Origin: Leucobacter salsicius M1-8 | GTDB lineage: Bacteria; Actinomycetota; Actinomycetes; Actinomycetales; Microbacteriaceae | Length of the DNA: 64,000 nucleotides | Assembly: GCF_000350525.1 (NCBI RefSeq) | Contig: NZ_AOCN01000026.1 | Coordinates: forward strand, 1 to 64,000 | Direction of reading: 5' to 3' | Shown: in pieces, positions 1,108 to 22,477 of the stretch | Layout: every line of letters starts with the position of its first letter | How positions within the stretch are numbered: position 1 is the first letter of the stretch | Translations under genes and position numbers: made by a program | Notes under the pieces: model-generated | The model's database searches: none | Told to the model about the DNA's origin: nothing | What the model saw: only the letters and a program-made list of their open reading frames with translations

Positions 1108-1173
1108 CGCACCCCAAACTTTGGCTCTACGTAAGTAATCGGCGCTGTCATCTCCCACGCGATCAGTCTCTGG
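1108..1173 (+). repeat. Array repeat copy 1 (left half only)
   Basis: Matches the left 66 bp of the consensus from cgcaccccaaacttt to the core gatcagtctctgg. After the core the sequence becomes cacaaatttcg instead of the usual tgcgaattcgg. The missing right half is found at 4228, on the far side of the helicase-nuclease gene. Confidence 0.9.
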
Positions 1174-1458
1174 CACAAATTTCGCAACACGCAGGTGGGT
1201 CTCGAAATTCTATTTGCCTTGGCATTTGCGCGCTCCGGCCGGCCGTTCTATAACGTGATCAGCTCAGATCATCCACGATGCCTCGAGCGCATCAAAGAAA
1301 TCCCAAAGTATGAGTTGCTGGTGCCAGCATTCGGACAAGGTCCACAGTCCGCAGGGGGTCGGAGCCTTGATCTAGTGAGTTTGGGTCCCACGTTTATCGC
1401 TGAATGCAGTGCAAAGGCGCGCGCGTTTCCGAGCTTGAGGTGTTACAACGGGCAGAAT

Positions 1459-3951
1459 ATGAGCATGGTCGATTTTAACGCGATGCTTGCCAATGCCGGA
1501 CAGCCGGAACCAATTGAGCCGCGGGAACTGCATGCTCTCCTGAATAAGAAGCAGGGCTACGGGAAGCTTTGGGACGTCCAAGGCCAGGTGCTTGAACGCT
1601 GGCATGAGCGCCGATCTGAACGAGACCTTGTTATCAAGGTCAATACGGGTGGCGGCAAGACTGTTGACGGGCTCGTAATACTGCAAAGCTACGTCAACGA
1701 GGGCAAGGGGCCTGGCCTTTATGTAGCCCCAAACAACCACCTAGTCCGCCAGGTTCTTGCAGAGGCAGCCAACCTAGGCATACCTGTCACCACTGATGTT
1801 GACGGCACACAATATCTAGCGGGCGAAGCTATCGGCGTCATCAATGCGCATGAACTCGTCAACGGTCGTAGCAAGTTTTCGAACCGTCGTCCGACGCGAC
1901 CACGTTCGCCTATTGGTGCTGTCGTGATCGATGATGCGCACGCCGCGATCGCCACGACACGCACGCAGCTTGCATTGTCGCTCCAGCACTCTAGTTCCGG
2001 CTATGAGCAGCTCTTGGACCTCTTCGCATCAGATTTGAGGGACCAATCTCTGAACGGATATTTGGATGTTGTAGAGAAGCGCAGGGGTGTTGCCATGAGG
2101 GTGCCATTCTGGGCATGGCGAGAGAAGCTAGAGCGAGTTGTGCCGATTCTGCGCGCTGAAGCGCAAGAAGATATGCCGCTCTACTGGTCCTGGCAGGGCG
2201 TTAGTGAGCACCTAGCTCTCTGCCGCGCGGTGTTCTCAGATCGGGAGCTCACGATCACGCCGCATTGCCCGCCAATAGAACATGTGACGTCATTTGTGGA
2301 GGCCAATCATCGAATCTTCCTCACAGCAACTCTTGCCGATGACAGCGTGCTTGTGACCGATTTTGGGGCGGATTCCGCGAGCATCGCCCGGCCGATCACG
2401 CCTACAACGGCGGGCGACATAGGGGAACGAATGATCCTTGCGCCGCAGGAGATTAATCCGAGCCTCAAAGTAGAAAAGGTCCGCGATCACATCGCGAAGC
2501 TCAGCGAGGAACACAACACGGTTGTAATCGTCCCCAGCGAGAAGGGTGCGCAGCCCTGGAAAGAGTACGCAGCGGAGGTCGCTGTGGGCGATGACGTCGA
2601 GACGGTTGTCGATCGACTTCGAAGCGGCTCCCATGTCGGGCTTGTTGTCCTGATTAACAGGTATGACGGTATCGACCTGCCGAATAACGCCTGCCGAGTT
2701 CTCGTGATCGATGGACTGCCGGAAGCCTTCAGCCCAGAAGAACGTATTCGTTCTTTGATGATGAGCGCTGGTTCTGGAGTCGACGATCGCCAAGTCCAAA
2801 GAATCGAACAAGGTATGGGACGTGGAGTGCGCAGCAACGAAGACCATTGTGTGGTCTTCCTGCTCGGCCCTAGGCTCGCCCAGCTCACAGTGGATTCGCG
2901 GACGGTCACACGCTTTAGCCCGGCAACACAGGCCCAGCTCAAGCTTTCGCGACGGCTCGCGTCCCAAATTGACAATGTACCGGTCGAGCAAATTATCAGC
3001 ACTGCCAGGCAAGCCCTCAGCCGTGAACCGGGGTGGGTCAAGCTCGCGTTACAGGCTCTGCGCAACATTGCGCCGCTCCCCGGTCACGTTTCGTCTGCCG
3101 CGATTGCGGAGAGGCAGGCATTTGAGCTTGCACAAAACAGGGCGTTCGCAGAGGCAGTTGCCGTAGTTTCCGAAGCCGCAAATTTAGAAGAAATTTCCGA
3201 TGCGACGGCAGGGATCCTTTTGGAACTGCAGGCCACTTACGTCGATATGACGGACCCGGTGCTTGGGCAGCACGTGCTCGCGCAGGCGCGTGCGAAGAAT
3301 ACAAGTGTCGTCAAGCCTCGGGCCGGCGTCACCTATGTACCGTTGCATGCGCATTCCGCTCAAGCCAAGTCTTGCGCTGAGATGCTTGCAGCAAAATTCT
3401 CAACTCCGGCGGCACTCTGCCTCGAGGCGGAGAAAATCATCGAGGACCTTGTGTTCGACGAGATGCGCATAGATCAGTTCGAAGAGGCGTTCCGCGAGGC
3501 AGGACTATTCATCGGCCTGGGATCTCAACGGCCTGAGCACGACACCGGGTCTGGCCCGGACAATCTTTGGGCGCTCGGCGGGAACAGTTTCTGGGTGATC
3601 GAAGCGAAGACTGGCGCGAAGAGCGCTGCGATCGGAAAGCGTGATATTGGACAGCTGTCAACATCCATGCTGTGGTTCGGAGACAGGTACGACCCGGACG
3701 CGAGTTCGATCCCGGTAATGGTGCATCGTGCGGTTCAAATCTATTCAGATGCCTCTCCCCTTCCCGGAATGCGCGTGATCACTGAGAAGACGCTAAGCGA
3801 GTTCGCCGGCGCGCTTCGACAGTTCGCCCAAGCGTTGAGTGCGAATGATTGGACCGATCCCGACGTCGTCGGCCGGCTTCTTGAAGGGCACGGGCTTAGC
3901 GCGGGTTCACTTCAGCGATACACAGTCCTTCAACGCGGGGTCAAGAACTAA
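1459..3951 (+). CDS. SF2 (DEAD-like) helicase fused to a C-terminal PD-(D/E)XK nuclease
   Basis: Probable anti-phage or restriction-type enzyme combining ATP-driven translocation with DNA cleavage. From Met-1459 the protein has 830 residues. Motif I is NTGGGKT (62-68), motif II is DDAH (158-161), and the motif VI region is QGMGRGVR (451-458). A nuclease-like domain near residues 690-730 shows DNLW followed by IEAKTG (E715, K717), the Asp...Glu-x-Lys pattern. The frame is open upstream to a GTG at 1195, but that start falls just after repeat copy 1 and the first 88 codons look unlike the rest; the segment starting MSMVDFNAML resembles the usual N terminus of such helicases. The gene is alone in its cassette and ends before a strong terminator. 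Function as defence is inference; no partner methylase is nearby. Confidence 0.8.
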   Translation: MSMVDFNAMLANAGQPEPIEPRELHALLNKKQGYGKLWDVQGQVLERWHERRSERDLVIKVNTGGGKTVDGLVILQSYVNEGKGPGLYVAPNNHLVRQVLAEAANLGIPVTTDVDGTQYLAGEAIGVINAHELVNGRSKFSNRRPTRPRSPIGAVVIDDAHAAIATTRTQLALSLQHSSSGYEQLLDLFASDLRDQSLNGYLDVVEKRRGVAMRVPFWAWREKLERVVPILRAEAQEDMPLYWSWQGVSEHLALCRAVFSDRELTITPHCPPIEHVTSFVEANHRIFLTATLADDSVLVTDFGADSASIARPITPTTAGDIGERMILAPQEINPSLKVEKVRDHIAKLSEEHNTVVIVPSEKGAQPWKEYAAEVAVGDDVETVVDRLRSGSHVGLVVLINRYDGIDLPNNACRVLVIDGLPEAFSPEERIRSLMMSAGSGVDDRQVQRIEQGMGRGVRSNEDHCVVFLLGPRLAQLTVDSRTVTRFSPATQAQLKLSRRLASQIDNVPVEQIISTARQALSREPGWVKLALQALRNIAPLPGHVSSAAIAERQAFELAQNRAFAEAVAVVSEAANLEEISDATAGILLELQATYVDMTDPVLGQHVLAQARAKNTSVVKPRAGVTYVPLHAHSAQAKSCAEMLAAKFSTPAALCLEAEKIIEDLVFDEMRIDQFEEAFREAGLFIGLGSQRPEHDTGSGPDNLWALGGNSFWVIEAKTGAKSAAIGKRDIGQLSTSMLWFGDRYDPDASSIPVMVHRAVQIYSDASPLPGMRVITEKTLSEFAGALRQFAQALSANDWTDPDVVGRLLEGHGLSAGSLQRYTVLQRGVKN

Positions 3952-3982
3952 GAGGCGTGTAGATCCTTCGCGAAGCCGCGGC

Positions 3983-4040
3983 GGATCTGATGCCCGTGTG
4001 GGTAACCATCCAGATTGTTACCCACACGGGCATCAGATCC
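3983..4040 (+). terminator. Perfect 24-bp inverted repeat, terminator of the helicase gene
   Basis: Arms at 3983-4006 and 4017-4040 are exact reverse complements (ggatctgatgcccg... and ...cgggcatcagatcc) around a 10-base loop, followed by gttttt. It begins 31 bp after the stop codon. The stem is unusually long and perfect for an ordinary terminator. Confidence 0.75.
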
Positions 4041-4522
4041 GTTTTTCGCTCCCTCTACGGAGCGATATGTGCCTTGGGTTTTGTCGTAAGCGACGTACCC
4101 AATATAGAACCGCTCCACGATTGCGACGACCGTGGCACCCTCTGTGCCTTTGTAGGCTTTTGCATACCGTCGCTATCCGACACCGCTTCGATGGCCAACT
4201 AGCACCCACCTCCTAAATCGTCTGTATCTGGTGCGAATTCGGTCTAATGCGGGGTTTGGCGAAATTACATTTGCCTTGAAAGTGGTGCACTTCTGCAGCG
4301 TCCCGAACAAACCCAGGATTTATCAACCGCAACGCACTCACCCAGGAAGGCTTGTGTAAGAAGTTCACCTTTAATCTGTAACGGTAGAGATTTCGGTCCT
4401 GCTCAGCCTTTGCGTCACAAGGGATATGGGATTGCGAGAAACACCCGTGGTGGGCACCCCAAAACCTAGTAGCTACGCGATATGAGCGCGAGCAGACGTT
4501 CCGTTCACTCTATGGTTGGACT
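4041..4522. other. Gene-free stretch containing repeat half copy 2
   Basis: No convincing gene is seen. The minus strand is open for about 80 codons (about 4164 down to 3950) and includes VVAIVERFYIGYVAYDK, which reads like real protein, but the frame runs through the 24-bp palindrome and has no good start; it may be a remnant. Bases 4228-4270 are the right half of the array repeat. The last 150 bp presumably carry the promoter of the next gene. Confidence 0.4.
4228..4270 (+). repeat. Array repeat copy 2 (right half only)
   Basis: From ctggtgcgaattcgg through gcgaaattac it matches the right half of the consensus. To its left the sequence reads gtctgtatctgg rather than gatcagtctctgg, so the left half is foreign. 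Together with copy 1 it makes one whole repeat split by the helicase-nuclease segment. Confidence 0.85.
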
Positions 4523-5368
4523 ATGAAAGATGTTTGGTTGAGCTTCAAGGAATGGGTTGCAGGTCTCACGCTGTACATGGCTATCGCACCATGGGTGCTT
4601 CCTGTCGTCGGTGGTATTCTCATCAGTTCGAATCTCAAGGGCGCGTGGTGGTTTGGGGGGCCTTTCATTGTCGGGGTAGTGCTGATCGCCTTGGGATCAA
4701 TTCCGCTAGGCATCAGGGATTCATGGATCGATGGCGAGCAAAAGGAAGCTGATGCTCGCAAGGCCAAGGAGCTGCAAACTCGTTCCTTGCTTTCGGATGA
4801 GCTTGAATCGATCGTGCTACCTGCCGAACTGCAGAATGATCAGGTCGAGGAGCATGTGAGAGCGATCTTGCAGCGAGTGCTTGACGCGTTAGTGTCTGAG
4901 GCCTACTCAGACGTTACAGATGTTCGTGCCGTGTTCTTTAGGCCTGGAATGTTGGACAGCATGCCTTGCGTATTCCCAGCCATTTCTACCGGTAAACCTA
5001 CAGGTCGACCTGCGCGCATTCATCTCACCCTGTCACCACGGTACGAGGGGATCTCGAAGCTCTTCGAAGACGAAAGCGAAACTCATTTCGAAAACGGAAT
5101 CTTGGGTCGAAGCTACACTGGGTTCGCTTCTGCTGCCGTTTCTTACGAGAGCACTGCGCTGGGCGTCTTGACGCTTGACGCTCCAGGGGGCTACGTGTTC
5201 GACCAGCAAGATGCGCAGAACCTGCTGGCGATCGCGCGTTTTTTCACCGCCATGCTCAACGCCGAGAGCCAGAATCTAGGCACGCCTTTGGGGTCAGGTT
5301 CAACCGCATTTGAGCAATATGTTGATAGCCTTGATGTAGACAAGGGAGGACAAGATGGCGGAAACTAA
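4523..5368 (+). CDS. Membrane protein: two TM helices, linker, GAF-like domain
   Basis: A 281-residue protein of unknown function. Two hydrophobic segments (about residues 13-34 and 43-62) are separated by a short loop, which suggests a helical hairpin with both termini inside. A charged helical stretch (about 68-125, rich in E, K, L and R) follows, and residues about 130-265 have the alternating pattern of a GAF-type sensor domain, including LGVLTLDAPGGYVF near 220, typical of the last GAF strands. The combination suggests a sensor tied to a membrane hairpin. It overlaps the following small gene by 14 bp, so the two are translated together. The lone cassette position and lack of a kinase or cyclase make an abortive-infection type effector a possibility; this is inference. 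Confidence 0.7.
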   Translation: MKDVWLSFKEWVAGLTLYMAIAPWVLPVVGGILISSNLKGAWWFGGPFIVGVVLIALGSIPLGIRDSWIDGEQKEADARKAKELQTRSLLSDELESIVLPAELQNDQVEEHVRAILQRVLDALVSEAYSDVTDVRAVFFRPGMLDSMPCVFPAISTGKPTGRPARIHLTLSPRYEGISKLFEDESETHFENGILGRSYTGFASAAVSYESTALGVLTLDAPGGYVFDQQDAQNLLAIARFFTAMLNAESQNLGTPLGSGSTAFEQYVDSLDVDKGGQDGGN

Positions 5369-5525
5369 GCTACGTAAGATTGAACTTCGTAAAGTGCAAC
5401 TTTCACCTGAAGTCATCGAAGCCAGGAAGGCTGCCGCCCAAAAGCGTCGGGAAATGACTTCGGCACAGCTCGCAAAGCAGCTGCGTGCTGAGCGCATTCA
5501 TCGGAGTCTTAGACGCGCCTCTTAG
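5355..5525 (+). CDS. Small basic helical protein, coupled to the membrane GAF gene
   Basis: A 56-residue protein beginning MAETKLRKIELRK and ending SLRRAS. It has a very good ribosome binding site, gggagga, 4 bp before the ATG, and starts 14 bp before the stop of the upstream membrane protein, so translational coupling is likely. Nearly every third residue is Arg or Lys and the middle (about 20-50) should be one long helix. It might be a regulator, antitoxin or membrane-targeted partner of its neighbour. No family is recognised. Confidence 0.6.
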   Translation: MAETKLRKIELRKVQLSPEVIEARKAAAQKRREMTSAQLAKQLRAERIHRSLRRAS

Positions 5526-5543
5526 CAGAGATTTTTACGGCTA

Positions 5544-5618
5544 GGGGAAGCCTTGCATAACGCGAACGGGGCTCGAGTTCTTCTGGAATTCAAGCCCCGT
5601 ACGCGTTATGCCTTCCCC
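5544..5618. terminator. Large imperfect inverted repeat after the small basic gene
   Basis: Arms at 5544-5573 (ggggaagccttgcataacgc...) and 5593-5618 (...gcgttatgccttcccc) pair with a small bulge around a 19-base loop. It lies between a plus-strand gene ending at 5525 and a minus-strand frame ending at 5606, so it can stop transcription from both sides. There is no clear T run after the stem on the plus strand. Confidence 0.5.
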
Positions 5619-5803
5619 ATCTGTTGCAGGTTCTGGAGCTGCGCGATGTCGTCGGGGTTCGTGGAAGCGAGGCGGAAGAAGCTGTCCGGGATCTTCACCA
5701 CGACCGGTGCGAGATAGCCGTCCAGGTTTGAGCGGAAACCCACCGCCGGGTGGATGAATTTGCTCTTCCCAGCGTCGAGGTACTGATGTGTCCTGGCTTT
5801 CAT
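5606..5803 (-). CDS. Short hypothetical protein, possibly a remnant
   Basis: A 65-residue frame starting MKARTHQYLDAGKS and ending LQQMGKA, with a protein-like composition and a hydrophobic centre (DGYLAPVVVKIPDSFFRL). Its stop lies within the large inverted repeat. No upstream ribosome binding site stands out and no family is recognised. Because an IS3 fragment begins only 54 bp from its start on the opposite strand, it may be a leftover of a larger gene. Confidence 0.35.
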   Translation of the reverse strand: MKARTHQYLDAGKSKFIHPAVGFRSNLDGYLAPVVVKIPDSFFRLASTNPDDIAQLQNLQQMGKA

Positions 5804-5856
5804 GGAGTCGGACTATCGGAATCTTGGTAGCAGCGCAACCAATTAAGAGGCTGGCC

Positions 5857-6099
5857 ATGACTCGTTATCTTGAACCATTCCGGCGCAAAGTACTAGAACT
5901 CATCGCTGAGGGCAAACACGTGAAGCATGTTGCTGAAGATCTGGGGCTCAGCCAGCAAACCATCTACAACTGGCGTGCACAAAAGCTCATCAATATGGTT
6001 GAAGGGTCTGATAAATCTTCGGTCGACTCTTGCCCGCCAGTTATAAGGGCCGAGCCTGATGCACGAATAAGTGACATTCGGGGCTTCTGTATGAAGTAA
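5857..6099 (+). pseudogene. IS3-family transposase OrfA fragment
   Basis: Starts with ATG after an aagagg motif and encodes MTRYLEPFRRKVLELIAEG followed by a helix-turn-helix with the typical SQQTIYNWRAQ segment. Similarity ends after about 45-50 residues; the last 15 codons lie in DNA that is repeated at 7929 and belong to the array repeat extension, not to a transposase. No OrfB follows, so this is a dead 5' fragment cut off by the repeat. Confidence 0.75.
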
Positions 6100-6169
6100 T
6101 GAGCTAGCAGGGCGAAGTGGTTGGCACATCTGATGTCCTGATGCTGCTTGAATAAGCTTCACGGAGTCA
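6055..6169 (+). repeat. Left extension of array repeat copy 3
   Basis: From ctgatgcacga to the start of copy 3 this segment is homologous to 7929-8044 before copy 4, sharing cttctgtatga, gggcgaagt and cggagtcac with scattered differences. The two extended units of about 220 bp therefore flank the 506-aa nuclease gene as direct repeats. Confidence 0.8.
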
Positions 6170-6274
6170 CCCCACGCCAAAAATTTGGCTCTACGTAAGT
6201 AATCGGCGCTGTCATCTCCCACGTGATAAGTCTCTGGTGCGAAATCTGTCTAATGAGAGGGTTCGCGAAATTAC
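6170..6274 (+). repeat. Array repeat copy 3 (full)
   Basis: Full copy with the usual middle (taagtaatcggcgctgtca), a variant core (cgtgataagtctctggtgcg) and the end gcgaaattac. The left edge is diverged (cacgccaaaaattt instead of cgcaccccaaacttt). Confidence 0.9.
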
Positions 6275-6365
6275 ATTTGCCCTGGCATTGATGCGCTTGG
6301 TCAGGCGGAGACATCGTCAGATTTGAGTCTCCTGCAATCCCAGGACGCATCAAAAGGTCCCGGAT

Positions 6366-7886
6366 ATGATCTCAGTCATGACGGATGAGATTGCTGGGCT
6401 CTCTTTGACTCAAACTCCTGAAGGCATAACTCCCGGCGAACTGGAGAGTTTGCGATCGAAATACATGCATCACGGTTTGACGAACTTTGCAGCAATGGCA
6501 AGGGATGTCGCACGGTCTCATGGGCCCTTAGCCAGCTATAAAGTTGCAAATCAAGGGATCTATTCTTTTGTGAAGCTTTGTCGGGCTGGCAGTCCTGCTG
6601 GATTCGATGTAAGCAGTCTTTTCGCGCAGAAATACGGAATGATTGCAGCAGCCTTAGGTGATGTTGCAGGGCTGCGTCAGATGAGCATTGCTGCACGGCT
6701 TTACGACGACTCCATTGGGCTGTCCAACGGTGAATCTCACAAGAAAGTTCATGGCTACAGTCTTGCCATGCAAGAGATGAAATCAATACTTGCGGCGCTG
6801 AAGAGTTCAGTGGATCCCGAAGCCGACGAGTTTGTACGACAGCTCAGAGGACAGGGAATCGTGCGCGCGAAGTTGAACATTCAATGGTTGATAAAGTGCA
6901 GCCGAGTTATCCAACTAAATGGAACACTGTCGATTCCTACGCGCGATCAACTTCACAGTGAACGATCCGTGTCAACTCAAAGCAAGTCGAAGCGATTCCA
7001 AAAGAGCAAGATGCAGCAGACTGAGCTCTATTATTCTGCAGATGTCGTAGAGCATATTTGGCATTTGGAACATCGAGGTTATTCACCCCGAATCTTCAAT
7101 TCAACAGCCATGCTCTGGCTGGGCTCTTCAAACCGGGTCAGTTCACTAGGCGATGAGCTCCACGATGAAGTAGATCGCGCGTTTTTGACGCTTGTGGAGA
7201 AGTTTCATGACGATACAGGAATGAGCGTGCTCGGTGGGCTATGGAAAACGTTGCTTCACGACGGGATCCCGGAAGAAGGAAGTCAAGCGTGTTTGAGGCT
7301 TTTCGGCGTCGATCGTCTCCCTGGGTGTATTAAGACAGCCGCACCAGACGCTTCAGCGTATGTAGACAGGAGAATTAGCTTAACTACTTACAAAGGGACT
7401 GGTCACACTTCTAATCAGCTTAAAGCTAAGCTCCCTAAGTTTAACTCCTTGGATTTCTTGACCGTTCTCAGTGCGCGTTTGAGATGTATCTACATTGAGG
7501 CTGAGAACAGCGTACGAGGACGTCATGGGCTTCCCCTCCGGGGGGAAGGCTGGGTCGGCGAGCTTGAACTCTTCAAAATGCTCGAAACAAGATTTGAAAG
7601 AAACAAAGTGGTTTTCCAAGGAAGGCCAGCTTGGCTAGGACGCCAATCATTTGACATTTATTTTCCAAACGAACGCGTTGCCGTCGAGTACCAAGGAGCT
7701 CAGCACTCTAGACCAGTTGCGCTGTTCGGGGGCGAACAAGGGTTCTTAAGGACGCAAGAGAGGGATGCAAGAAAGCGGGCGCTTTCAGAGCAACACGGCT
7801 GTGTGTTGATTGAGGTATTCCCGGGATACGATCCAGAGGCTGTTGCGGCGAAGGTGAGTGCCGCTCTAAGCAGGGCAGATCGCTAG
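6366..7886 (+). CDS. Protein with C-terminal Vsr-like PD-(D/E)XK endonuclease domain
   Basis: A 506-residue protein. The last 110 residues look like the very-short-patch-repair type of nuclease fold: a conserved acidic start near WVGELELF (about 394), D430 in FDIYF, and E441 with Q443 in VAVEYQGAQH, then a basic helix (TQERDARKRAL) and a final strand LIEVFPGYDP. The first 380 residues are unrecognised, probably helical, and contain a basic Ser/Gln/Lys-rich linker near 200-215. The ATG at 6366 follows caaaaggtcccgg; a second ATG at 6378 is possible. The gene fills a cassette alone between repeat copies 3 and 4, with codon use clearly A/T-richer than the core genome. A stand-alone restriction or anti-phage nuclease is the most likely role, by inference. 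Confidence 0.7.
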   Translation: MISVMTDEIAGLSLTQTPEGITPGELESLRSKYMHHGLTNFAAMARDVARSHGPLASYKVANQGIYSFVKLCRAGSPAGFDVSSLFAQKYGMIAAALGDVAGLRQMSIAARLYDDSIGLSNGESHKKVHGYSLAMQEMKSILAALKSSVDPEADEFVRQLRGQGIVRAKLNIQWLIKCSRVIQLNGTLSIPTRDQLHSERSVSTQSKSKRFQKSKMQQTELYYSADVVEHIWHLEHRGYSPRIFNSTAMLWLGSSNRVSSLGDELHDEVDRAFLTLVEKFHDDTGMSVLGGLWKTLLHDGIPEEGSQACLRLFGVDRLPGCIKTAAPDASAYVDRRISLTTYKGTGHTSNQLKAKLPKFNSLDFLTVLSARLRCIYIEAENSVRGRHGLPLRGEGWVGELELFKMLETRFERNKVVFQGRPAWLGRQSFDIYFPNERVAVEYQGAQHSRPVALFGGEQGFLRTQERDARKRALSEQHGCVLIEVFPGYDPEAVAAKVSAALSRADR

Positions 7887-7928
7887 ACAATGTAGCTAAT
7901 AGGCGGCCCTCGATTAATTCTGAGGGGT

Positions 7929-8044
7929 CTGATGCACGAGGATGTGACGTTCGGTGCTTCTGTATGAGGGAATGAGTTGGCGGGCGAAGTAGTTGGCAAA
8001 CTTGATATCCAGATGCAGCTTAAACTAGCTTCGCGGAGTCACTC
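7929..8044 (+). repeat. Left extension of array repeat copy 4
   Basis: Homologous to 6055-6169, as described there. It begins 43 bp after the nuclease stop codon. Confidence 0.8.
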
Positions 8045-8147
8045 CGCACCCTAAACTTCGGCTCTACATAAGTAATCGGCGGTGTCATCTCCCACGCGAT
8101 CAGTCTCTGGCGCGAATTCGGTCTAATGCGGGGTTTAGCGAAATTAC
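8045..8147 (+). repeat. Array repeat copy 4 (full)
   Basis: Runs from cgcaccctaaactt to gcgaaattac with an intact core gatcagtctctgg. The IS110 element lies about 20 bp beyond its right end, after a G/C-rich stretch (cgcccgcccggggg). Confidence 0.95.
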
Positions 8148-8184
8148 ATTTGACGCCCGCCCGGGGGTGCCCCTATTACTTTTG

Positions 8185-9384: not shown

Positions 9385-9420
9385 GACTGCTCCGTCCGTT
9401 GAGATTTCGGCGGTCAGCTC

Positions 9421-9608: not shown

Positions 9609-9610
9609 TA

Positions 9611-15342: not shown

Positions 15343-15345
15343 TCC

Positions 15346-15528
15346 ATGACCAATATCCGTGCAGGACAGGAGCTCGGCGAGCACCGCACTGGTGACAGTC
15401 GATGCTGGCTCCTCGAACGGCCATACGCCAATCGGAGTCACAAAGGTCACCTGTCACCTGCATCCGCAGCGTGGCGGCGACCGTGCAACACACTACGTGC
15501 ACGGTGGACTATTTGGAATGAATACTAA
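15346..15528 (+). CDS. Short frame after the sigma operon, doubtful
   Basis: ATG-15346 has an excellent ggaggt 6 bp upstream and gives 60 residues of unnatural composition (many Arg, Trp, His). In the next frame, bases 15359-15535 encode a more protein-like stretch (ASTALVTVDAGSSNGHTPIG). A 1-bp shift near the start would join the good ribosome site to the better frame, so a frameshifted small gene is as likely as either frame alone. Confidence 0.3.
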   Translation: MTNIRAGQELGEHRTGDSRCWLLERPYANRSHKGHLSPASAAWRRPCNTLRARWTIWNEY

Positions 15529-15539
15529 TCAGTAAACAG

Positions 15540-15583
15540 GCCAGGGTTGCCGTCTTGCCCCACATGGCGGTGGCAACCCTGGC
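15540..15583 (+). terminator. Perfect 12-bp hairpin
   Basis: Arms 15540-15551 (gccagggttgcc) and 15572-15583 (ggcaaccctggc) are exact complements around a 20-base loop. It closes the sigma operon and precedes a lipoprotein gene. No T run follows. Confidence 0.55.
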
Positions 15584-15604
15584 TCCGATAGAGAATGACA
15601 GCAC

Positions 15605-16018
15605 ATGAGAAAAGCAAATCTACCTCTGATCGCAATCCTGGGGGCCGCAGCACTCGTCTCCTGCTCAACGCCAAGCGAAGATACTCGCGAGGCTGCGAAG
15701 AGTTACAGTACCGAGGAGTCCTGTGCCGCAGCGGGGACTTTGCTCGGCTCGTTCTTGGACACGATGGTGGAGTACCGTTCAGGCGAAGTCTCAGAAGACG
15801 AGCTGCATGAGTTTGAGGCGGACCTTTCCGAGAAGTGGACCGGCCTAGGTGAGCAAAGCCCTGAAGGGTTGCGACCTCTCCTGCTCGCTGCCGGGGATAC
15901 TTCGCGAGAACCGGGTCTTGAGACTAACCGTGACTATGACCAAGCACTGGGGGAAGTCCTGGCCAAATGTGAGTCCTCGGGATTCCCCGTGCACGCCAAG
16001 GTAACTCACGGTGGTTGA
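15605..16018 (+). CDS. Small lipoprotein, unknown function
   Basis: A 137-residue protein with a signal peptide (MRKANLPLIAILGAAAL) and lipobox LVSC (Cys at about 20), so it is expected outside the membrane. The mature part is acidic and helical with two more Cys (about 40 and 124). No family is recognised. It lies between the sigma operon and another secreted protein gene and could belong to the regulon of the neighbouring sigma factor, which is inference from position. Confidence 0.6.
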   Translation: MRKANLPLIAILGAAALVSCSTPSEDTREAAKSYSTEESCAAAGTLLGSFLDTMVEYRSGEVSEDELHEFEADLSEKWTGLGEQSPEGLRPLLLAAGDTSREPGLETNRDYDQALGEVLAKCESSGFPVHAKVTHGG

Positions 16019-16102
16019 GCATGCTTTCCCATCATTTTTGATCCACAGCTCGCACTCGCAGTTCCCTCAACACGCAAGACAATCAGAGAGGTATTGATAA
16101 AG

Positions 16103-16429
16103 ATGAAGAAACCCAAGTCAGTATTACTGGCCACTATTGCAGCTGCAGCGCTCATCGTGGGTGGCACCGCAAGCTCGCCCGCGTTTGCGTCGGGGGGCTT
16201 GATTGAGAATCCATCCGATCCCACCGCTCAGGTCGCCCCCAGCCCTCTACTCGCTGAGCTAGAAGTGCTGACTGAAACGCAGGCCGAGGCTGATGTCCAA
16301 GCGCTGTTTGATTCTGGTGTCCCGGCAGAATTCCTCGTGGACACGAGCGGAGATGAGTGGGAGCTCGTAGCAGGCATCGCCAGGGGCAACCCAGTCCAGA
16401 CGTACGCGCTGTCTCAGCTGGGTGGATAG
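16103..16429 (+). CDS. Small secreted protein
   Basis: A 108-residue protein with a clear signal peptide: MKKPKSVLLATIAAAALIVG and a probable cleavage after AFA. The mature part has an acidic helix (ELEVLTETQAEADVQALF) and no Cys. ATG-16103 is preferred over TTG-16094 because the gagagg site is too close to the TTG. Function unknown. Confidence 0.55.
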   Translation: MKKPKSVLLATIAAAALIVGGTASSPAFASGGLIENPSDPTAQVAPSPLLAELEVLTETQAEADVQALFDSGVPAEFLVDTSGDEWELVAGIARGNPVQTYALSQLGG

Positions 16430-16592
16430 CAATCATGGCCAGGTGTTCGGGAGAGCATTAAGTTGATTCAGCGCAATGAATTTGCGATTGGCTACCGGAA
16501 TCGCAGTAGCGGAGCATCTGGGGCATTGACGACATTTTGAGTCGTAGATAATATGCCTCGAGCCCGGCCTGATGCGCGGTGGAGGTTCTCGT

Positions 16593-16693
16593 CGCACCCC
16601 GAACTTTGGCTCTACATAAGTAATCGGCGCTGTCATCTCCCTCGCGACCAGTCTCTTGTGCAAATCATGCTTAATGAGAGGGTTCCCGAAATT
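16593..16693 (+). repeat. Array repeat copy 6 (full, diverged)
   Basis: Starts cgcaccccgaacttt, has core cgaccagtctcttgtgc and ends cccgaaatt. It is the most diverged full copy, with changes in the core. Its left flank (gatgcgcggtggagg) resembles that of copy 9. Confidence 0.85.
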
Positions 16694-16865
16694 GTAGATG
16701 CCCCAGTGTCCCCAGCTGCGCACCTGGGGGCATGAGCGTCTCCACCAGGACCAGACCGCATCAGATTTGGTCTGTGCGCGTCGACGCACCGGTCTGCGCC
16801 GCTGGTGCCAAGATGAGAGGACCACTCCAACGAAGGGGCGGGAATTCTAAGAGAGGTGAACCAGA

Positions 16866-18488
16866 TTGGCTCAGCCAAAGGCATCTGCGCAAGCTACAAC
16901 TCTGTATCGTTTGAGGCACACAAGCAATCTCGAAGACGCGGTCAAGAAAAAGTACCGTAATGACTCAGCGATCACCACGGACAAATGCAAGGTTGGATCC
17001 AAAGATGCCGTCCTGATTCATGGGTCGATCGGATCGGGTGGAACGGTTAAATGGGCTGGTCGAGTTCACCAATTGACCGGTGTGAAGGTTACTACTGAGA
17101 ACACTACTGCCGGTGGTGTCCTCCTGCTGAGACTGAACAACGACGAAGCGGCGGCTACCTGGGCTCTGTGTTGGGGTATGGGCTGGTTGCTTCTGGACCA
17201 GGGTCTGGTTGAGAGTGGTTTTGGGCAAAGACTTGCACTTAGATCGGCTGATCCTGATCTTCTAAGCTCTCTGACCCGAACCGTCTTAGATGAACGAGCT
17301 AAGGTCGACCGCTCATCCATTCCTACGGGCTCAGGTCTGTCTGGATTCGGAATCGGTGGGTTTGGCGAACTGGTGACCCGTGTCGTCGGTAAGGCAGAGA
17401 TCAAGGGCCTCACAATTGATAAGTCCTTCCGTGTGCGAGGAGCCGATGCTGTTTCGGTGCCGCTTGGTTTGACTGCGGAGACGCTGATTTCTGATCTAGA
17501 AGTGATCGACGAACTGCTTGCGCAAGACCCTCTACCGGAGTTGGAGGTGCTGGAGCAACTTGTGCCTGTCAAGAAGAAGACTGCTCTCCACGACAAGCTG
17601 GACGCTCATCTCGAAGCGGAATTACTAAAAGCTCCGGGATTGTCGACGATCGCCGTTACTTGGCCGCACGAGCATCTGAATGAAAATCTACCCCCTGAGT
17701 CCTTCAAGGTCAGACGTGGCGGAAGCCCCTCCGTTCGCGCAGATTTGCCGACTGCAGTGCTGATTCTGGAACTTATGAAGGGTAGAAACATTGAGTCTCT
17801 GGACGTCATTAAGATTCAATTGTTCTCTGATGCAGAGGGGACTAACCCAGTGAGTACGGATATCCCTCTACGTAAATGGGTGGCTTATGAGAAGGAGGAA
17901 AGTGGTCAGCGCTACTTCCTGTACAACGGGCAGTGGTTCGCGATGGATCTTGATTATGCGAAGCAACTTGATGAACGTGTCAAGCAGATCTTTGCGATGG
18001 GAGCAGATATTACGATGCCCGTGTGGCATGCCCCGGATGATGAGGAGGCTTACAACAAGAAGGCCTCGACATCTCTAGGCGCTGTTTTAATGGATCGGAA
18101 ACTCGTTCAGACGACCCAGAATAAGCGGGGATTTGAACCAAGCGACCTTATAACGGAGAAAGACATCTACGTTCACGTGAAGTCGGCTTCTTCGTCCGCG
18201 CCACTGAGCCACCTTTTCTCGCAGGGTGGAAACTCCGCGCATGCTTTGCAATACGACGAGGAAGCTCGCACGAAGCTGAGAAAACGAGTAACGGAACGCG
18301 GCGGTAACGGTGACCTAATCGGCGCCAGGCCACGAAGAGTTGTTTACGCAATACGACCGAAAAAGCAGGGAGGAACTGTCACGGCGGACACCCTATTCAG
18401 CTTCAGTAAAGTGTCGCTCGTTCGCGTTTTTGATGAGTTAGAGAGCCGTGGCATAGAAGTGCGAGTAGTCAGCGTCGACTACGTTTAG
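16866..18488 (+). CDS. TIGR04141/DUF6119 family protein
   Basis: A 540-residue protein of the family named 'sporadically distributed protein, TIGR04141', known from its patchy occurrence and frequent presence in defence islands. The recognisable part is the C-terminal half: a segment around GAVLMDRKLVQTT (about 402), then YVHVKSASSSAPLSHLF (about 440) with its conserved lysine and SHLF. The biochemical role is not established. It starts at TTG because gagaggtg lies 7 bp before and no suitable ATG is near. It fills the cassette between copies 6 and 7 alone. Codon use is A/T-richer than the core genome, consistent with acquisition. Confidence 0.75.
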   Translation: MAQPKASAQATTLYRLRHTSNLEDAVKKKYRNDSAITTDKCKVGSKDAVLIHGSIGSGGTVKWAGRVHQLTGVKVTTENTTAGGVLLLRLNNDEAAATWALCWGMGWLLLDQGLVESGFGQRLALRSADPDLLSSLTRTVLDERAKVDRSSIPTGSGLSGFGIGGFGELVTRVVGKAEIKGLTIDKSFRVRGADAVSVPLGLTAETLISDLEVIDELLAQDPLPELEVLEQLVPVKKKTALHDKLDAHLEAELLKAPGLSTIAVTWPHEHLNENLPPESFKVRRGGSPSVRADLPTAVLILELMKGRNIESLDVIKIQLFSDAEGTNPVSTDIPLRKWVAYEKEESGQRYFLYNGQWFAMDLDYAKQLDERVKQIFAMGADITMPVWHAPDDEEAYNKKASTSLGAVLMDRKLVQTTQNKRGFEPSDLITEKDIYVHVKSASSSAPLSHLFSQGGNSAHALQYDEEARTKLRKRVTERGGNGDLIGARPRRVVYAIRPKKQGGTVTADTLFSFSKVSLVRVFDELESRGIEVRVVSVDYV

Positions 18489-18615
18489 TACGAAAGTAGT
18501 GGTGTAAGCCCCGTGTTTTGGCATTAGCTTCTGAACTCAGGATGAGAGTTGTCAATGATTCCGGTGTGGGAGTCATAGACAACTTCCTCGATTCGGTAGG
18601 TGCGTAGGCCTACTC

Positions 18616-18718
18616 TGCACCCTAAACTTTGGCTCTACATAAGTAAACGGCGCTGTCATCTCCCACGCGATCAGTCTCTGGTGCGAATTCCGCCTAATGC
18701 GGGGTTTCGCGAAATTAC
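18616..18718 (+). repeat. Array repeat copy 7 (full)
   Basis: Runs from tgcaccctaaacttt to gcgaaattac with intact core gatcagtctctggtgcg. A 7-bp stem, gaccggg/cccggtc, lies about 20 bp to its right (18739-18763). Confidence 0.95.
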
Positions 18719-18838
18719 ATTTGGCTTGGCTGTTACACGACCGGGGCAGAAGCCTCGACCCGGTCCAAGAGTCCAAGAAATCCAGATCGCATCACTTTGC
18801 TCTCGGAGCGGAGCACTAGATCATCGTTGACGAGTTAG

Positions 18839-19009
18839 CCCAGGGAACCAACGACCGTCGAGTCACGTGTAGCGTGGTTCGACGAACGTGAGACGCTTCT
18901 AATGGCCCATCGAGCGCTCTCTCACACAGATCTATTCTTTCCCTGGCCTGACGATGAAGGCAAACAGTATGAGCTGAAGTTGCGTCTGCCTGTTCGGCCG
19001 CTGATCTAG
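18839..19009 (+). pseudogene. Short protein-like remnant
   Basis: The frame from 18839 to the TAG at 19009 encodes ESRVAWFDERETLLMAHRA and then SHTDLFFPWPDDEGKQYELK, which reads like the end of a real protein. The only ATG (18902) would give 36 residues. No family is recognised; the remaining DNA between copy 7 and 19074 shows no other gene. Confidence 0.3.
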
Positions 19010-19073
19010 TACTGACCGGGAAGCCCTCAGTAGTTCATAGTGGGATTCGCAGCTTCACCACTATCTTTGAAAG

Positions 19074-19643
19074 ATGGTTGATTTACAGCAGGTGGAACCA
19101 GGGCTTCCCGATGGGCACCCTTGGAAAACTTACTCCCGCTGGAGCATGGCCTGGCGCACCTTCCTCGGCTTATCGCTCGTGGGGATGATCGGAACGTTGT
19201 TCTTTGCGCTGGTGACCCTAGGGAACGGATCTCTCAACCTGATGGAGAGTTTCTTGCCTTATATTTTCAGTTTCTACTTTCCTTTGATTTGTGCGGCCAC
19301 CGCGGCAGTAGTCGGGCCGTGGCTCACCCGCTATTTCCCGTTTTCGCAGTCACTGTTGTTTGGTGGGATCACAGTTGTGGTGGTGACTTTGGTGTTTGCG
19401 GTCATTTCTGTTTGGGAGTCGATCGTAAGTGGTCCATGCGATCCAGGCACCCTGTGTAGTGCCCCGCTCGATGGGATGTTCTGGTTGATTTTCGTATTCG
19501 GGTTTCCGATGTTTCTCAACGCATCTATTGGGTACGGCGTATCTGTGTGGTCCCCAACGCGGCGTGGGCGTAAAGTTTTTTGGCCTCTGCTGATCGGGGT
19601 CGTTGTCGTCTTCGCCGCATCGCTTGTGATCGCTAACATCTGA
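19074..19643 (+). CDS. Multi-pass membrane protein
   Basis: A 189-residue protein with about five membrane spans: near 29-50, 56-82, 98-116, 133-155 and 167-188. Spans are joined by short loops, one with two Cys (GPCDPGTLC, about 121-129). No enzyme motif is seen and no family is recognised. It is the main gene of the smallest cassette, between copies 7 and 8. The ATG follows gaaagatgg; no strong ribosome site is visible. Confidence 0.6.
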   Translation: MVDLQQVEPGLPDGHPWKTYSRWSMAWRTFLGLSLVGMIGTLFFALVTLGNGSLNLMESFLPYIFSFYFPLICAATAAVVGPWLTRYFPFSQSLLFGGITVVVVTLVFAVISVWESIVSGPCDPGTLCSAPLDGMFWLIFVFGFPMFLNASIGYGVSVWSPTRRGRKVFWPLLIGVVVVFAASLVIANI

Positions 19644-19668
19644 AGCAGGGGAGCCACTGGGGTTCCAA

Positions 19669-19887
19669 GTGAAGCGGGCTCGTACGAGGAGTCCTGAGGC
19701 TGCAAGGGTTGCAACTCAATCGCGAAGAGCTAGGCTTTCGATACGAATCGCGCATTGGCTAACCGGAGTCTTATTGGACGTTGGTGAAACGCTGAGTGGT
19801 CTGGTGCAACGCTTGGTGTCCTCGCCGCCGATGAAGACAGCACATCTAATTTCCAGGTACTGGAATGAGCTGGATTGGTGCAGATAG
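19669..19887 (+). CDS. Small basic protein, doubtful
   Basis: A 72-residue frame from GTG-19669, rich in Arg in its first 25 residues, then a possible amphipathic helix (IAHWLTGVLLDVGETLSGL). It follows the membrane gene by 25 bp with ccaagtg before the start, a weak site. It could be a coupled partner or chance. Confidence 0.3.
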   Translation: MKRARTRSPEAARVATQSRRARLSIRIAHWLTGVLLDVGETLSGLVQRLVSSPPMKTAHLISRYWNELDWCR

Positions 19888-19932
19888 GCCTGGCGTTCTA
19901 ATCAACCACAAAACAGCTACGCAGATTTCCAT

Positions 19933-20035
19933 CGCACCCCAAACTTTGGCTCTACGTAAGTAATCGGCGCTGTCATCTCCCACGCGATCAGTCTCTGGTG
20001 CAAATTCGGTCTAATGCGGGGGTTCGCGAAATTAC
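19933..20035 (+). repeat. Array repeat copy 8 (full)
   Basis: Runs from cgcaccccaaacttt to gcgaaattac with intact core gatcagtctctggtgc. It is among the closest to the consensus. Confidence 0.95.
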
Positions 20036-20053
20036 AGCCGCCCTGTCTATCGT

Positions 20054-20147
20054 GCTCCGGCCTGCAGGAAGTTGTGATTCACAAACTCGAGAATAGTCAG
20101 CGCCTTCAGCGCTGACATTGTACGGACAAGCAAACGAGACCTCAGTG
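20054..20147 (+). repeat. Segment shared downstream of copies 8 and 5
   Basis: Homologous to 11333-11426. It contains a perfect 8-bp stem gtcagcgc/gcgctgac (20096-20103 with 20109-20116) and a 5-base loop. Confidence 0.7.
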
Positions 20148-20333
20148 CTCGGGCTGAGTAACCGTTAGCCGTCGCAGATCCTCGCTTGTATTGATGTTCA
20201 TGAAACGCCGAGTACTTGCAAATCAGCCCGAACGCGGGAGACGACGATCTGCAATGGACACACATTCGGAAGGATAATCTGGCAATCGGAGTAAAACAGA
20301 AATACTGCGAGTCGCCCCTGCCATGCTTAAGGT

Positions 20334-21125
20334 ATGTCTGATTTTCTAATCGATGACCTCACTACAGACGAGGATGCGTCATTTGACGTAGATAAGAACA
20401 CACCGGCCTGGCGCCAGTTTGAAAAAGACGTTGTGCTCACACTTCGTAGTCTTGACCCGGCTGCTGAGGTGGTGCATGATCAGAAAATTCCGGGTAGCTC
20501 AGGCGAGGAGCGCCAACTGGACGCTGTTGCGCGGAAAGCAATTGCAGGGGCTCATGTTGATGTGGTTATTGAATGCAAGCTCTACAACCGCAAACTTGGA
20601 ATTGGGAAAATTGACGAGTTCGTTGGAAAGCTTCTTGACGTCGGTGCCGGTCTCGGAATCCTTTACGCGGCAAAGGGAGTGACGGAACCCGCTAGAAAGA
20701 GGGCTGAGACGGCTCTTAATCCGAGAATCGTACTGAGGGATATCAGTAACGTAGTGGAAGGACTTGAATCGCAGGCTGTTGACCTTTCCGAACTCATCGA
20801 GGATGAGGTTCTGGGCACCTGCCAGGTAGATGCCTGTCTGTTTGGTGATGTGCAGCTTTTCGAGGTTGACGAGATAGAAGTGGGGCACTGCGGCTCATGT
20901 GGGACGCTCCATCTTCAGTGCGGTTGCTGCGGCGAATTATCAGATGTTGAATGGGACCGAGCGGTTTGTTACGTCTGCAACGCCGAATACAGCATCCTCA
21001 GTTACCAGGGTGACTTAGATGGGATCGAACTTGTGACCCACGGGCCAGATTGTGAGCACATCTCGTCTGCGACTCGGACGGAATCCTTCACCCTGATACT
21101 GCCTCGAGATACACCGAAAGCTTAA
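20334..21125 (+). CDS. Mrr-like restriction endonuclease with C-terminal zinc ribbon
   Basis: A 263-residue protein. Residues 25-140 form an Mrr-type PD-(D/E)XK domain: WRQFEKDVVLTLR, then D63 in RQLDAVA, E80-C-K82 in VVIECKLYNRK, and a following helix with GKIDEFVGKL. The C-terminal part has several Cys pairs (C186-x-x-C189, a GCCGE turn near 200, CYVC near 213) that should bind zinc. Such proteins cut foreign or modified DNA. The ATG follows ttaaggt closely, so the ribosome site is poor. No methylase lies nearby, so recognition of modified DNA is more likely than a classical restriction pair; this is inference. Confidence 0.75.
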   Translation: MSDFLIDDLTTDEDASFDVDKNTPAWRQFEKDVVLTLRSLDPAAEVVHDQKIPGSSGEERQLDAVARKAIAGAHVDVVIECKLYNRKLGIGKIDEFVGKLLDVGAGLGILYAAKGVTEPARKRAETALNPRIVLRDISNVVEGLESQAVDLSELIEDEVLGTCQVDACLFGDVQLFEVDEIEVGHCGSCGTLHLQCGCCGELSDVEWDRAVCYVCNAEYSILSYQGDLDGIELVTHGPDCEHISSATRTESFTLILPRDTPKA

Positions 21126-21310
21126 AACTGATTAGAGTGTCGCTCGGCAGCATCCTCGAGCATGACTAGTTTCTAACGTGAATATAGGGGCATTGTGTTC
21201 CAAGAGAGCATGAGTTTCAAGGTATGTTCGTGCAGGCCGCTACGCAAATTTAGGTGAAGTTTTCCGACTCCTCCTGCGGTGCCAGTAGTTGATCTAGCTA
21301 ATCTGAGCCC

Positions 21311-22264
21311 ATGACACATGAACAAGGAAACACCCCCGAATTTCAGCAGTTGGAAGCGCTAGCCACCCTGTTCCAGCACTGCCAAAGCGCGTTCCTGCAA
21401 ATTTCAGAAGAGTGCCGCTGGGAGCCAGCAGCTGGTTCACCGGCAGAGACAGACGCGACCGCTCTACTTCCACCGAATTCGCCGGGTGAGGATACCAGCG
21501 GTGATAGCGGCCATCGTCTCCTCGCTAATGCAGTCCATTCCTTCCTACTCAATGCCTCTGGCCATCTTGGAGGATTGGCGGCGCTCTACCGCAACGGTGA
21601 GGTGCTCTACTCTCCGGCACTGTTGATTCGTTCCGTCGCAGAGCACTGCGCTCACGCGCTGTGGGTTCTCGGAGATCCTTCTCTTACGCACGAAGATCTG
21701 CTTGCACGTGCCTACCTGGAAGAGTTGAAAAGCGCCGAAGAAGCTAAAAAGAACGATGGATACATGTTTGGCAAGGAGAGCAATCGCTATCAGATAGCTG
21801 CAAAGCACTATAAAGAGCTAAAGAAGCTGATAACCCATAAGTTCCCCGAGGCCACCAACGCTTCGTTAGGGGAAGCAAGATTGAACGGCCAAAAACTCCC
21901 CAAACCTGAAGAAGCAGTGAAGCTCATGTATGCGCGTGTGGAGGAGTTCGGGGGGAAGGTGACGCAAGTACAGTCAGCAGGCGTCTATGGGGCCCTGTCG
22001 AACCTTACCCACCCGACCCTTTATACCGGCCGATCACGTCAATCCAAACATTATGACCCGGTGACAGGGAACACCATCACAATTCAGGCAATCACTTACG
22101 AGGAGGTTGAGAAAGAAGCACGAATCGCTTTATTCGCGTTCCACAGTGCGCTCAGCATCACGGTCTCATACTTTGGGTGGCCGGAAGTCGACTTACATGC
22201 CCTTGAGGGCAGGATTATCGAAACCATTCCGGATTTCTTCGGCCCGGATGCTTCAACACATTGA
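21311..22264 (+). CDS. Helical protein of unknown function
   Basis: A 317-residue soluble protein, predicted mostly helical. Visible features are a polar first third, a hydrophobic helix SPALLIRSVAEHCAHALWVL (about 98-117), a Lys-rich region (about 136-180) and NLTHPTLYTG near 236, a motif-like turn with His. The pattern of paired long helices and conserved-looking R, E and H recalls DUF5677- or HEPN-like proteins, but no diagnostic motif is certain. It follows the Mrr-like nuclease by 185 bp in the same cassette and could be its partner or an independent toxin. Confidence 0.5.
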   Translation: MTHEQGNTPEFQQLEALATLFQHCQSAFLQISEECRWEPAAGSPAETDATALLPPNSPGEDTSGDSGHRLLANAVHSFLLNASGHLGGLAALYRNGEVLYSPALLIRSVAEHCAHALWVLGDPSLTHEDLLARAYLEELKSAEEAKKNDGYMFGKESNRYQIAAKHYKELKKLITHKFPEATNASLGEARLNGQKLPKPEEAVKLMYARVEEFGGKVTQVQSAGVYGALSNLTHPTLYTGRSRQSKHYDPVTGNTITIQAITYEEVEKEARIALFAFHSALSITVSYFGWPEVDLHALEGRIIETIPDFFGPDASTH

Positions 22265-22411
22265 AGTACCTAAGCATCTGAAGGATCTTGGATTGGGTCA
22301 GATAGGCTTCTGAAGTCATCGCGGAACGGCGCGTGGGTCAACGACGTCTACTGCTCCTAGTCGTCGACAATAGACAACGAACTCGAACGGATGAGCGGTG
22401 GAGAGCCTCAT

Positions 22412-22477
22412 CGCACCCCGAACTTTGGCTCTACGTAAGTAATCGGCGCTGTCATCTCCCACGCGATCAGTCTCTGG
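22412..22477 (+). repeat. Array repeat copy 9 (left half), fused to comEC
   Basis: Matches the left half from cgcaccccgaacttt to gatcagtctctgg. Then the sequence continues ggccaactgcgcc, which is comEC, instead of tgcgaattcgg. The shared bases gtctctgg also encode V-S-G of comEC, so this copy is a hybrid junction like an attR site. Confidence 0.9.

Follow-up and report, generated by a model that had tools for sequence, protein, structure and literature searches.

A row of small gene cassettes between putative attachment sites in the comEC gene of Leucobacter salsicius M1-8

The composite islands of the staphylococcal cassette chromosome (SCC) hold several elements between direct repeats at one target gene, rlmH, and involve the Ccr serine recombinases. 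Integrons depend on a tyrosine integrase that acts on folded single-stranded attC, with core sites GTTRRRY/RYYYAAC. Here we describe a locus of Leucobacter salsicius M1-8 in which the competence gene comEC is split and a row of direct repeats, which we consider to be putative attachment (att) sites, separates small gene cassettes upstream of the comEC 3' part. The stretch of DNA analysed, referred to as the window, comprises 64,000 nucleotides (assembly GCF_000350525.1, contig NZ_AOCN01000026.1, positions 1 to 64,000 of the forward strand). The ssrA islands of Dehalococcoides are the closest described kind, followed by the accretion of cis-mobilizable elements (CIMEs) and by the SCC composite islands.

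As described in PMC3146451, the Dehalococcoides islands are tandem elements between direct repeats at one target gene, served by a large serine recombinase, the CcrB-like DsiB; the repeat duplicates 20 bp of the ssrA 3' end, and a six-gene integration module is retained in 16 of the 31 islands and missing from others. Against that account, the Leucobacter array has an attP-like repeat of ~105 bp and cassettes of 1-5 kb, no such module was found in it, and its target is the middle of comEC. CIME accretion beside integrative and conjugative elements (ICEs) or integrative and mobilizable elements (IMEs) is on record, in the account of PMC5704250, as non-autonomous segments with att sites beside an integrase-bearing element. 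The Leucobacter array likewise consists of att-bounded segments that adjoin an integrase-bearing element and in which no integrase or transfer genes of their own were found, but it differs in that ten such segments, all very small, follow one another and no remains of integration or transfer genes were found in them. Compared with SCC, the target is comEC, and the integrase scores 30.6 and 25.8 bits with the CcrA and CcrB models, far below their cut-offs of 700 and 900. The layout resembles that of an integron in that the integrase gene lies by its site, an array of short cassettes follows and the main genes run mostly in one direction, whereas the integrase class, the site structure and the terminal attR in comEC are different.

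The comEC gene is also the target of phage phi1207.3, which, according to PMC10383233, integrates in pneumococcal comEC and impairs transformation; the same account relates a proposal that disruption of competence genes by mobile elements protects them from removal by transformation. The phage has the comEC target in common with the Leucobacter array, but it is a prophage rather than a cassette array and comes from a different phylum. None of the literature matches listed, from a search that left most subscription papers outside, described an array of cassettes at comEC that is served by a serine integrase.

Attachment sites, integrase and the comEC target

The window starts at the first position of contig C26 of the L. 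salsicius genome (G000), and the contig that precedes it is C25. Direct repeats lie at 1108, 4228, 6170, 8045, 11212, 16593, 18616, 19933 and 22412, and all nine have the + orientation, exactly as the initial annotation had it. This count holds as far as the window goes but is incomplete for the locus, since two more copies were recovered when the part of C25 that had been fetched was searched with a profile, and the full locus on C25 and C26 comprises 11 att sites and ten cassettes. The left arm of the repeat unit is ~65 bp long and ends in TCTCTGG, the right arm measures ~40 bp, and the fuller copies are 81-93% identical to one another (aligned stretches of ~90-127 bp). Three copies that had been taken for halves do deviate, but they are better described individually: the copy at 22412 is a left arm joined to comEC, the one at 4228 has a different left arm and the one at 1108 a diverged right arm. 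In order, the locus contains a gene for a 509-aa integrase on C25 and 11 sites of the same orientation, the last of which is joined to comEC. The sites and the comEC 3' part are as follows.

C25:73615-73718 of G000: att site 1, integrase-proximal, core TG ending at C25:73677
C25: att site 2, core GG ending at C25:74630
1108..1218, + strand: att site 3, core GG ending at 1173, full left arm and diverged right arm
4202..4273, + strand: att site 4, core GG ending at 4231, usual right arm and different left arm
6172..6284, + strand: att site 5, core GG ending at 6237
8045..8152, + strand: att site 6, core GG ending at 8110
11212..11317, + strand: att site 7, core GG ending at 11277
16593..16698, + strand: att site 8, core TG ending at 16658
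18616..18721, + strand: att site 9, core GG ending at 18681
19933..20038, + strand: att site 10, core GG ending at 19998
22412..22477, + strand: att site 11, attR, a P (left) arm joined at GG to comEC
22478..24167, + strand: comEC 3' part, with Competence and metallo-beta-lactamase domains (Pfam)

The order of the two contigs was obtained from Leucobacter chromiireducens subsp. solipictus TAN 31504 (G028), in which an uninterrupted cassette aligns to C25:74578-76711 and then to window 927-1186. Because one unbroken cassette spans both contig ends, the alignment indicates that C25 and C26 are neighbours and supports the continuation of C25 into C26 with an IS256-family insertion sequence (IS) element at the break. 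Contigs C11, C15 and C27 carry the IS256 sequence of window 1-926 at their ends as well.

The statement that the array has no integrase is right as far as the array within the window is concerned but does not extend to the locus, because the first repeat on C25 adjoins the 5' end of the integrase gene. The 509-aa product is a large serine integrase with Resolvase (PF00239) and Recombinase (PF07508) domains. An R-V-S motif near its N-terminus is invariant in all seven aligned homologues, and its serine is presumably the catalytic one. Among solved structures, only the SPbeta recombinase YokA and a YokA-YotN entry are related to it by sequence at E <= 0.001 (1e-11). This integrase or a relative with 48-89% identity occurs in seven of the 54 Leucobacter genomes, G000 included (G000, G003, G015, G018, G026, G028 and G049, where G026 is L. 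ruminantium A2), while the matches in G044 and G050 are 31-32% identical. In all seven, the integrase stands beside comEC and a GG junction falls at the SGANC codons.

The comEC gene of L. salsicius is split. Its 5' part was located by genome search at C24:61272-62114, the single match to the Competence family in G000 is the 3' part in the window, and attR is joined to comEC within the SGANCALV codons. When the two halves are joined once at GG, the frame is open and reads HL-AVSG(A/S)NC in 7/7 genomes (those named above). Both parts are on one contig in G003, G015, G018, G028 and G049. The comEC 3' parts of G000 and G028 are 57% identical as protein, and the array belongs to a larger integrated element.

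The anatomy of the repeats suggests that they are attachment sites with a GG crossover. The core is GG at nine of the 11 sites and TG at the integrase-proximal site and at 16593. The bases on either side of GG differ among Leucobacter genomes, so that GG is the shared crossover dinucleotide, as would fit a large serine integrase. The left (P) arm forms an inverted repeat around the core with the element's own right arm P', seen at attL, with 26 of 45 positions matching; one of 5000 shuffles reached this value. We also considered that the right arm might be a copy of the comEC right half-site, as in an attR x attR model, and rejected this candidate, as only 15/45 positions match over the whole arm and 38% of the shuffles reach that value; the rejection refers to the whole-arm comparison, since next to the core this candidate equals the P' reading.

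The site at 4228 is distinct. Its left arm, CACCCACCTCC...TATCTGG, is unlike the other left arms of the array, and its last 30 bases match G015 at 23/30 and fourteen other comEC-integrase loci at 17-22/30 but the other array sites at only 15-18/30. Because this arm is nearer to G015 and other relatives than to the rest of the array, we suspect that it comes from another integrase lineage.

In addition, some cassettes have a common end sequence of 50-120 bp beyond the att site while their genes are not shared. Such ends were seen at 6056-6176/7929-8049, 1038-1108/19862-19933, 16540-16593/22359-22412 and 11318-11411/20039-20133, as if cargo had been swapped within conserved ends.

A true integron, a CRISPR (clustered regularly interspaced short palindromic repeats) array or a family of miniature inverted-repeat transposable elements (MITEs) would resemble this locus only in superficial layout, and we regard all three as extremely improbable. 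The integrase is a serine and not a tyrosine enzyme, the GTTRRRY/RYYYAAC motifs occur at none of the nine window sites (the two C25 sites were outside this test), and the folds of five of the nine window sites are ordinary (z of -0.4 to 2.1 against mononucleotide shuffles). The exclusion of an integron by the initial annotation is thus borne out, in that there is neither an IntI-type tyrosine integrase nor an attC motif in the nine window sites, and so is that of CRISPR, since the sites are spaced in kb. A whole-genome search (E <= 0.001) gave ten repeat matches, nine on C26 and one on C25, with none elsewhere; the repeat is therefore not scattered at unrelated sites as a MITE would be, and a MITE or other dispersed repeat is ruled out because all copies in its own genome are in the array.

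A cassette common to two divergent elements

The comparison of comEC loci among relatives revealed that the number of cassettes differs from genome to genome. In G003, G015, G018 and G026, there is no cassette and the integrase is 33-66 bp from comEC. G028 contains one cassette of 2323 bp between the element's own left arm and attR, G049 contains a 13-kb insert, which carries pilin, sortase and regulator genes and is flanked by two P arms with 2/25 differing bases, and G000 contains ten cassettes. The integron-like layout, in which the integrase is beside the first site and cassettes follow, is found in G000, G028 and G049.

The single cassette of G028 is the second cassette (b) of G000, with 94.7% identity over 2135 bp on C25 and 90.4% over 260 bp at window 927-1186. 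The backbones of the two elements (C25:27601-76711 against G028:C6:312001-352000) are more diverged, as eleven aligned pieces of >150 bp, all within C25:27601-73713, are 68.8-77.9% identical; the last piece, which holds the integrase, extends into the first site. Because the cassette is 94.7% identical while the aligned backbone is 69-78% identical, cassette 2 probably moved on its own.

The ends of the cassette are consistent with this. At its left end, G028 agrees with the site before cassette b at 44/58 positions (76%) on the left side of GG and at 52/59 (88%) on the right side, and with the right side of the first G000 site at 39/54 (72%). At its right end, up to GG, it matches cassette b at 169/179 positions (94%) and the comEC-side end of G000 at 126/158 (80%); past this GG comes comEC in G028 and cassette c in the window. 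The integrase-proximal left arm of G028 shares 88% identity with its counterpart in the cassette-free G003 and likewise with the first site of G000. It thus seems that a 2.3-kb unit with GG at its limits was inserted between comEC and the P arm of the element. A search of the family for DNA of cassette 2 gave partial matches of 65-69% in four of 398 genomes besides G000, with 2-3 candidates scored per genome and G028 outside this set.

We considered that the array might be a fixed block, built once and inherited, with the present differences produced by homologous recombination between repeats and by deletion. Repeats of ~105 bp could support homologous exchange, and two pairs of shared ends extend beyond the site (6056-6176/7929-8049 and 11318-11411/20039-20133). 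A block of this kind does not account well for a cassette of 94.7% identity between backbones of 69-78%, nor for a first left arm in G028 that is of the element type, being 88% identical to the first sites of G003 and G000 and 76% identical to the site that precedes the cassette here. We therefore consider this history improbable.

A second alternative, which we rate as unlikely though clearly better than the fixed block, is tandem accretion, in which the segments are CIME remnants of complete integrative elements that lost their integrase and transfer genes after insertion into comEC. Such accretion has precedent (PMC5704250, in the account given above), and the left arm of the site at 4228 is nearer to G015 and some relatives (up to 22-23/30) than to the array (15-18/30), as if an element of another lineage had once been there. 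However, the array holds no integrase relative, no transfer gene occurs among 20 cassette open reading frames (ORFs) scanned with Pfam, four of them on C25, and the segments are small. The integrase search (tblastn with a working positive control) gave one weak match, outside the array at window 43302-43439 (E 0.012). No decay remnant of an ICE or IME was found in the cassettes, yet such genes could have been lost in full. Cassette 2, moreover, has the same limits in both element backbones and in this way acts like a unit of 2.3 kb.

We conclude that small non-autonomous elements stacked by the serine integrase of the host element best explain the locus as a whole, and we put the probability of this at roughly 80%. 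It draws on the anatomy of the sites, the GG junctions, the differing cassette numbers and the one cassette common to two divergent elements. In such a scheme, the integrase of the large element would target the conserved SGANCALV codons of comEC, with crossover at GG. Each cassette, devoid of a recombinase of this family, would carry an attP-like site consisting of a left arm P and a P'-like right arm, and cassette circles would recombine in trans, in one orientation, with the P arm beside the integrase or with attR beside comEC. New cassettes would arrive by attP x attR-type (or attP x attP-type) exchange, and the outcome would be the order integrase - site - cassette - site - cassette - ... 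- attR - comEC 3' part. We infer the action of the integrase, the circles, their excision and this mode of arrival; the arrival step in particular keeps that status because attP x attR exchange is unusual for the enzyme class. The cassette in divergent backbones gives indirect support to mobilisation in trans by the integrase of a neighbour. The initial annotation had proposed that small non-autonomous elements were added stepwise at a single att-type site, and its proposal is strengthened by the variation in cassette number between genomes and by the occurrence of one cassette in two diverged backbones, at different array positions and with junctions at one dinucleotide.

Several observations weigh against this scheme. 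Exchange between attP and attR is not a standard serine-integrase reaction. The repeat was detected in only two of the 54 Leucobacter genomes and not convincingly elsewhere, and a single cassette is shared by two genomes. For window 2420-22400 as a whole, the other 53 Leucobacter genomes gave no counterpart among the candidates scored, which were at most five per genome and in part IS110 copies; besides IS110, the matches listed are the repeat in G028, a dispersed 66-bp segment and short or weak segments. The comEC 5' part of G000 is on a separate contig, C24, so that the C24-C25 junction is taken from the relatives. In the sites themselves, the right arm matches the element's P' at 20/45 positions, a modest value reached by 19 of 5000 shuffles in one of nine comparisons, and in the 20 bases next to the core P' (8/20) and the comEC half-site (9/20) match about equally, each value being reached by ~10% of shuffles. 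All array sites resemble one another in the final 60 bp of the left arm (the attR of G028 is 98% identical to site 1108 and 97% to 22412), and the left arm alone therefore cannot identify a cassette. Some sites, namely those with a TG core (the first site and 16593), may be dead; the TG/TG pair might instead recombine only with itself.

If cassettes are stacked by the serine integrase in this way, the cargo probably travels with the element but turns over faster than the element does. A further step, about which we are more doubtful than confident, is that the locus is a functional analogue of an integron built on a large serine integrase, which would continuously capture, stack and exchange cassettes of 1-5 kb, partly with defence-like genes, through attP-type sites, with the first site by the integrase, the last fused to comEC and the DNA uptake of the host switched off. 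If so, the ten small cassettes would show that the task of the integron has been solved independently, with simple double-stranded sites directly testable in a laboratory host, and it would offer a delimited reservoir in which to seek new defence genes, each inter-site segment being a unit. The array would also tie the capture of cargo to the splitting of comEC.

Integrase relatives beyond Leucobacter

Thirty-five integrase loci in named genomes were compared in fetched DNA, among which L101 is G028 and L120 is G026, both also counted in the Leucobacter set. In 14 of them, the integrase has the comEC 3' part on its upstream side, within 100 bp in eight, whereas the other 21 do not show it there; not every relative therefore need target comEC, and some of the 21 loci may use other targets or arrangements. 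In six of the 35, 2.4-5.1 kb lie between integrase and comEC. A second P arm, allowing up to 9/30 mismatches, was sought in 14 loci and found only in the L. chromiireducens locus; no array was detected outside Leucobacter. In L110 and L112-L115, cargo separates the integrase from comEC but there is no second P arm, a point in favour of accretion of decayed elements, and the intervening DNA looks like cargo of the element itself. In L112 and L113 (Microbacterium), it includes a 915-aa protein, the L112 copy of which has a C-terminal AAA_21 match.

Other searches gave little. A strict repeat pattern in genome_contigs and a shorter one in viral_contigs had no matches; these negatives are weak because both patterns miss even the known sites of G028. 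There was likewise no match to a right-arm pattern in viral_contigs or to the full att site in plasmids, and no integrase relative in viral_contigs, while three plasmid records contain relatives of 27-30% identity. Family-wide searches scored 2-3 candidates per genome and the cassette search five, so that matches can be missed. The family-wide DNA search gave one 31-bp repeat match, in G329, which reads like a chance match in coding sequence; neither the integrase nor comEC is present in the 18 kb around it.

Three loci of Arthrobacter/Pseudarthrobacter (L116, L117 and L121) have a related integrase beside a site, followed by a shared start, CCATGTGAGGTGAC, and then by DNA that differs in L117. 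In L116, the comEC 3' part is ~69 kb away if G450:C1 is its contig. Other arrays or elements may therefore exist. In L105 (Pseudarthrobacter sp. HLT1-5), what precedes the integrase resembles, by eye, the 5' part of comEC and not the 3' part, and the element family may thus also sit in comEC in the opposite arrangement.

Contents of the cassettes and of the host element

The cassettes of L. salsicius, and the IS element inserted in one of them, are as follows.

C25, between att sites 1 and 2: cassette a, 0.95 kb, no family match, one hydrophobic segment
C25:74631-76711 and window 927..1173, + strand: cassette 2 (b), ~2.3 kb without IS256; MarR-type regulator, glyoxalase-superfamily protein and AlkA-like DNA repair glycosylase
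1..926, + strand: 3' part of an IS256-family element that is truncated at the contig start and inserted in cassette b (Pfam Transposase_mut 1.5e-89, NCBIfam IS256)
1174..4231, + strand: cassette c, 3.1 kb; ORF 1195-3951, helicase-like and candidate defence protein PDC-S28 (PADLOC 1.6e-289; Pfam Helicase_C_2/ResIII)
4232..6237, + strand: cassette d, 2.0 kb; ORF 4523-5368 with two hydrophobic segments, no Pfam, PADLOC or PHROG match
6238..8110, + strand: cassette e, 1.9 kb; ORF 6366-7886 with an endonuclease-like C-terminus (PHROG HNH/homing endonuclease families, 4.7e-14 and 3.1e-12)
8111..11277, no strand assigned: cassette f, 3.2 kb; IS110-family copy at ~8163-9628 and ORF 10362-10841 (- strand) with several hydrophobic segments
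11278..16658, no strand assigned: cassette g, the largest, 5.4 kb; sigma factor at 13764-14345 (Pfam Sigma70_r4_2 1.3e-9) and further ORFs
16659..18681, + strand: cassette h, 2.0 kb; ORF 16866-18488, DUF6119 (Pfam 9.5e-107), no PADLOC match
18682..19998, + strand: cassette i, 1.3 kb; ORF 19074-19643, small protein with about five hydrophobic segments, no family match
19999..22477, + strand: cassette j, 2.5 kb; ORF 20334-21125, Mrr-type restriction nuclease (Mrr_cat 1.9e-8), and ORF 21311-22264, DUF5677-like (1.2e-4, below the cut-off)

The GC content of cassettes c-j is 50-59%, compared with 65% in the chromosome to the right. The defence-like content seen earlier is present in the candidate defence helicase, the Mrr-type nuclease and the endonuclease-like protein; since the cargo also includes DNA repair, regulators, a sigma factor and hydrophobic proteins with no assigned function, the label of a defence island is fair for some cassettes only. 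Homologues of the sigma factor of cassette g and its neighbours (36-67% identity) occur near the intact comEC of another Leucobacter, G033 (L166, G033:C3 ~48400-51600), which is either a coincidence or points to a source of cargo.

In the host element, a protein read as a translocase ATPase (G000:C25 ~63300-67300) contains a LAGLIDADG-bearing insert right after GPTGSGK (Walker A), and this insert looks like an intein with a LAGLIDADG domain. The end of the same protein has a sub-threshold FtsK_SpoIIIE match (15.8 bits against a cut-off of 24). No relaxase or type IV secretion system families were found among the 17 element proteins scanned (from G000, G028 and G015), which are a minor part of the element.

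Integron attC sites are known to be targeted by IS110. In cassette f, the IS110 copy (8163-9628) begins ~10 bp past the att site at 8045, and near-identical copies are found on C15, on C22 and at the start of C25; by analogy, it could mark targeting of the att site by IS110. A segment of ~66-70 bp at window 11435-11505 recurs with 89-95% identity in several Leucobacter genomes, twice in G028, and had no tRNA or Rfam match. Finally, a 60-bp near-perfect inverted repeat at 3982-4041, just past the helicase gene of cassette c, is probably a terminator hairpin.

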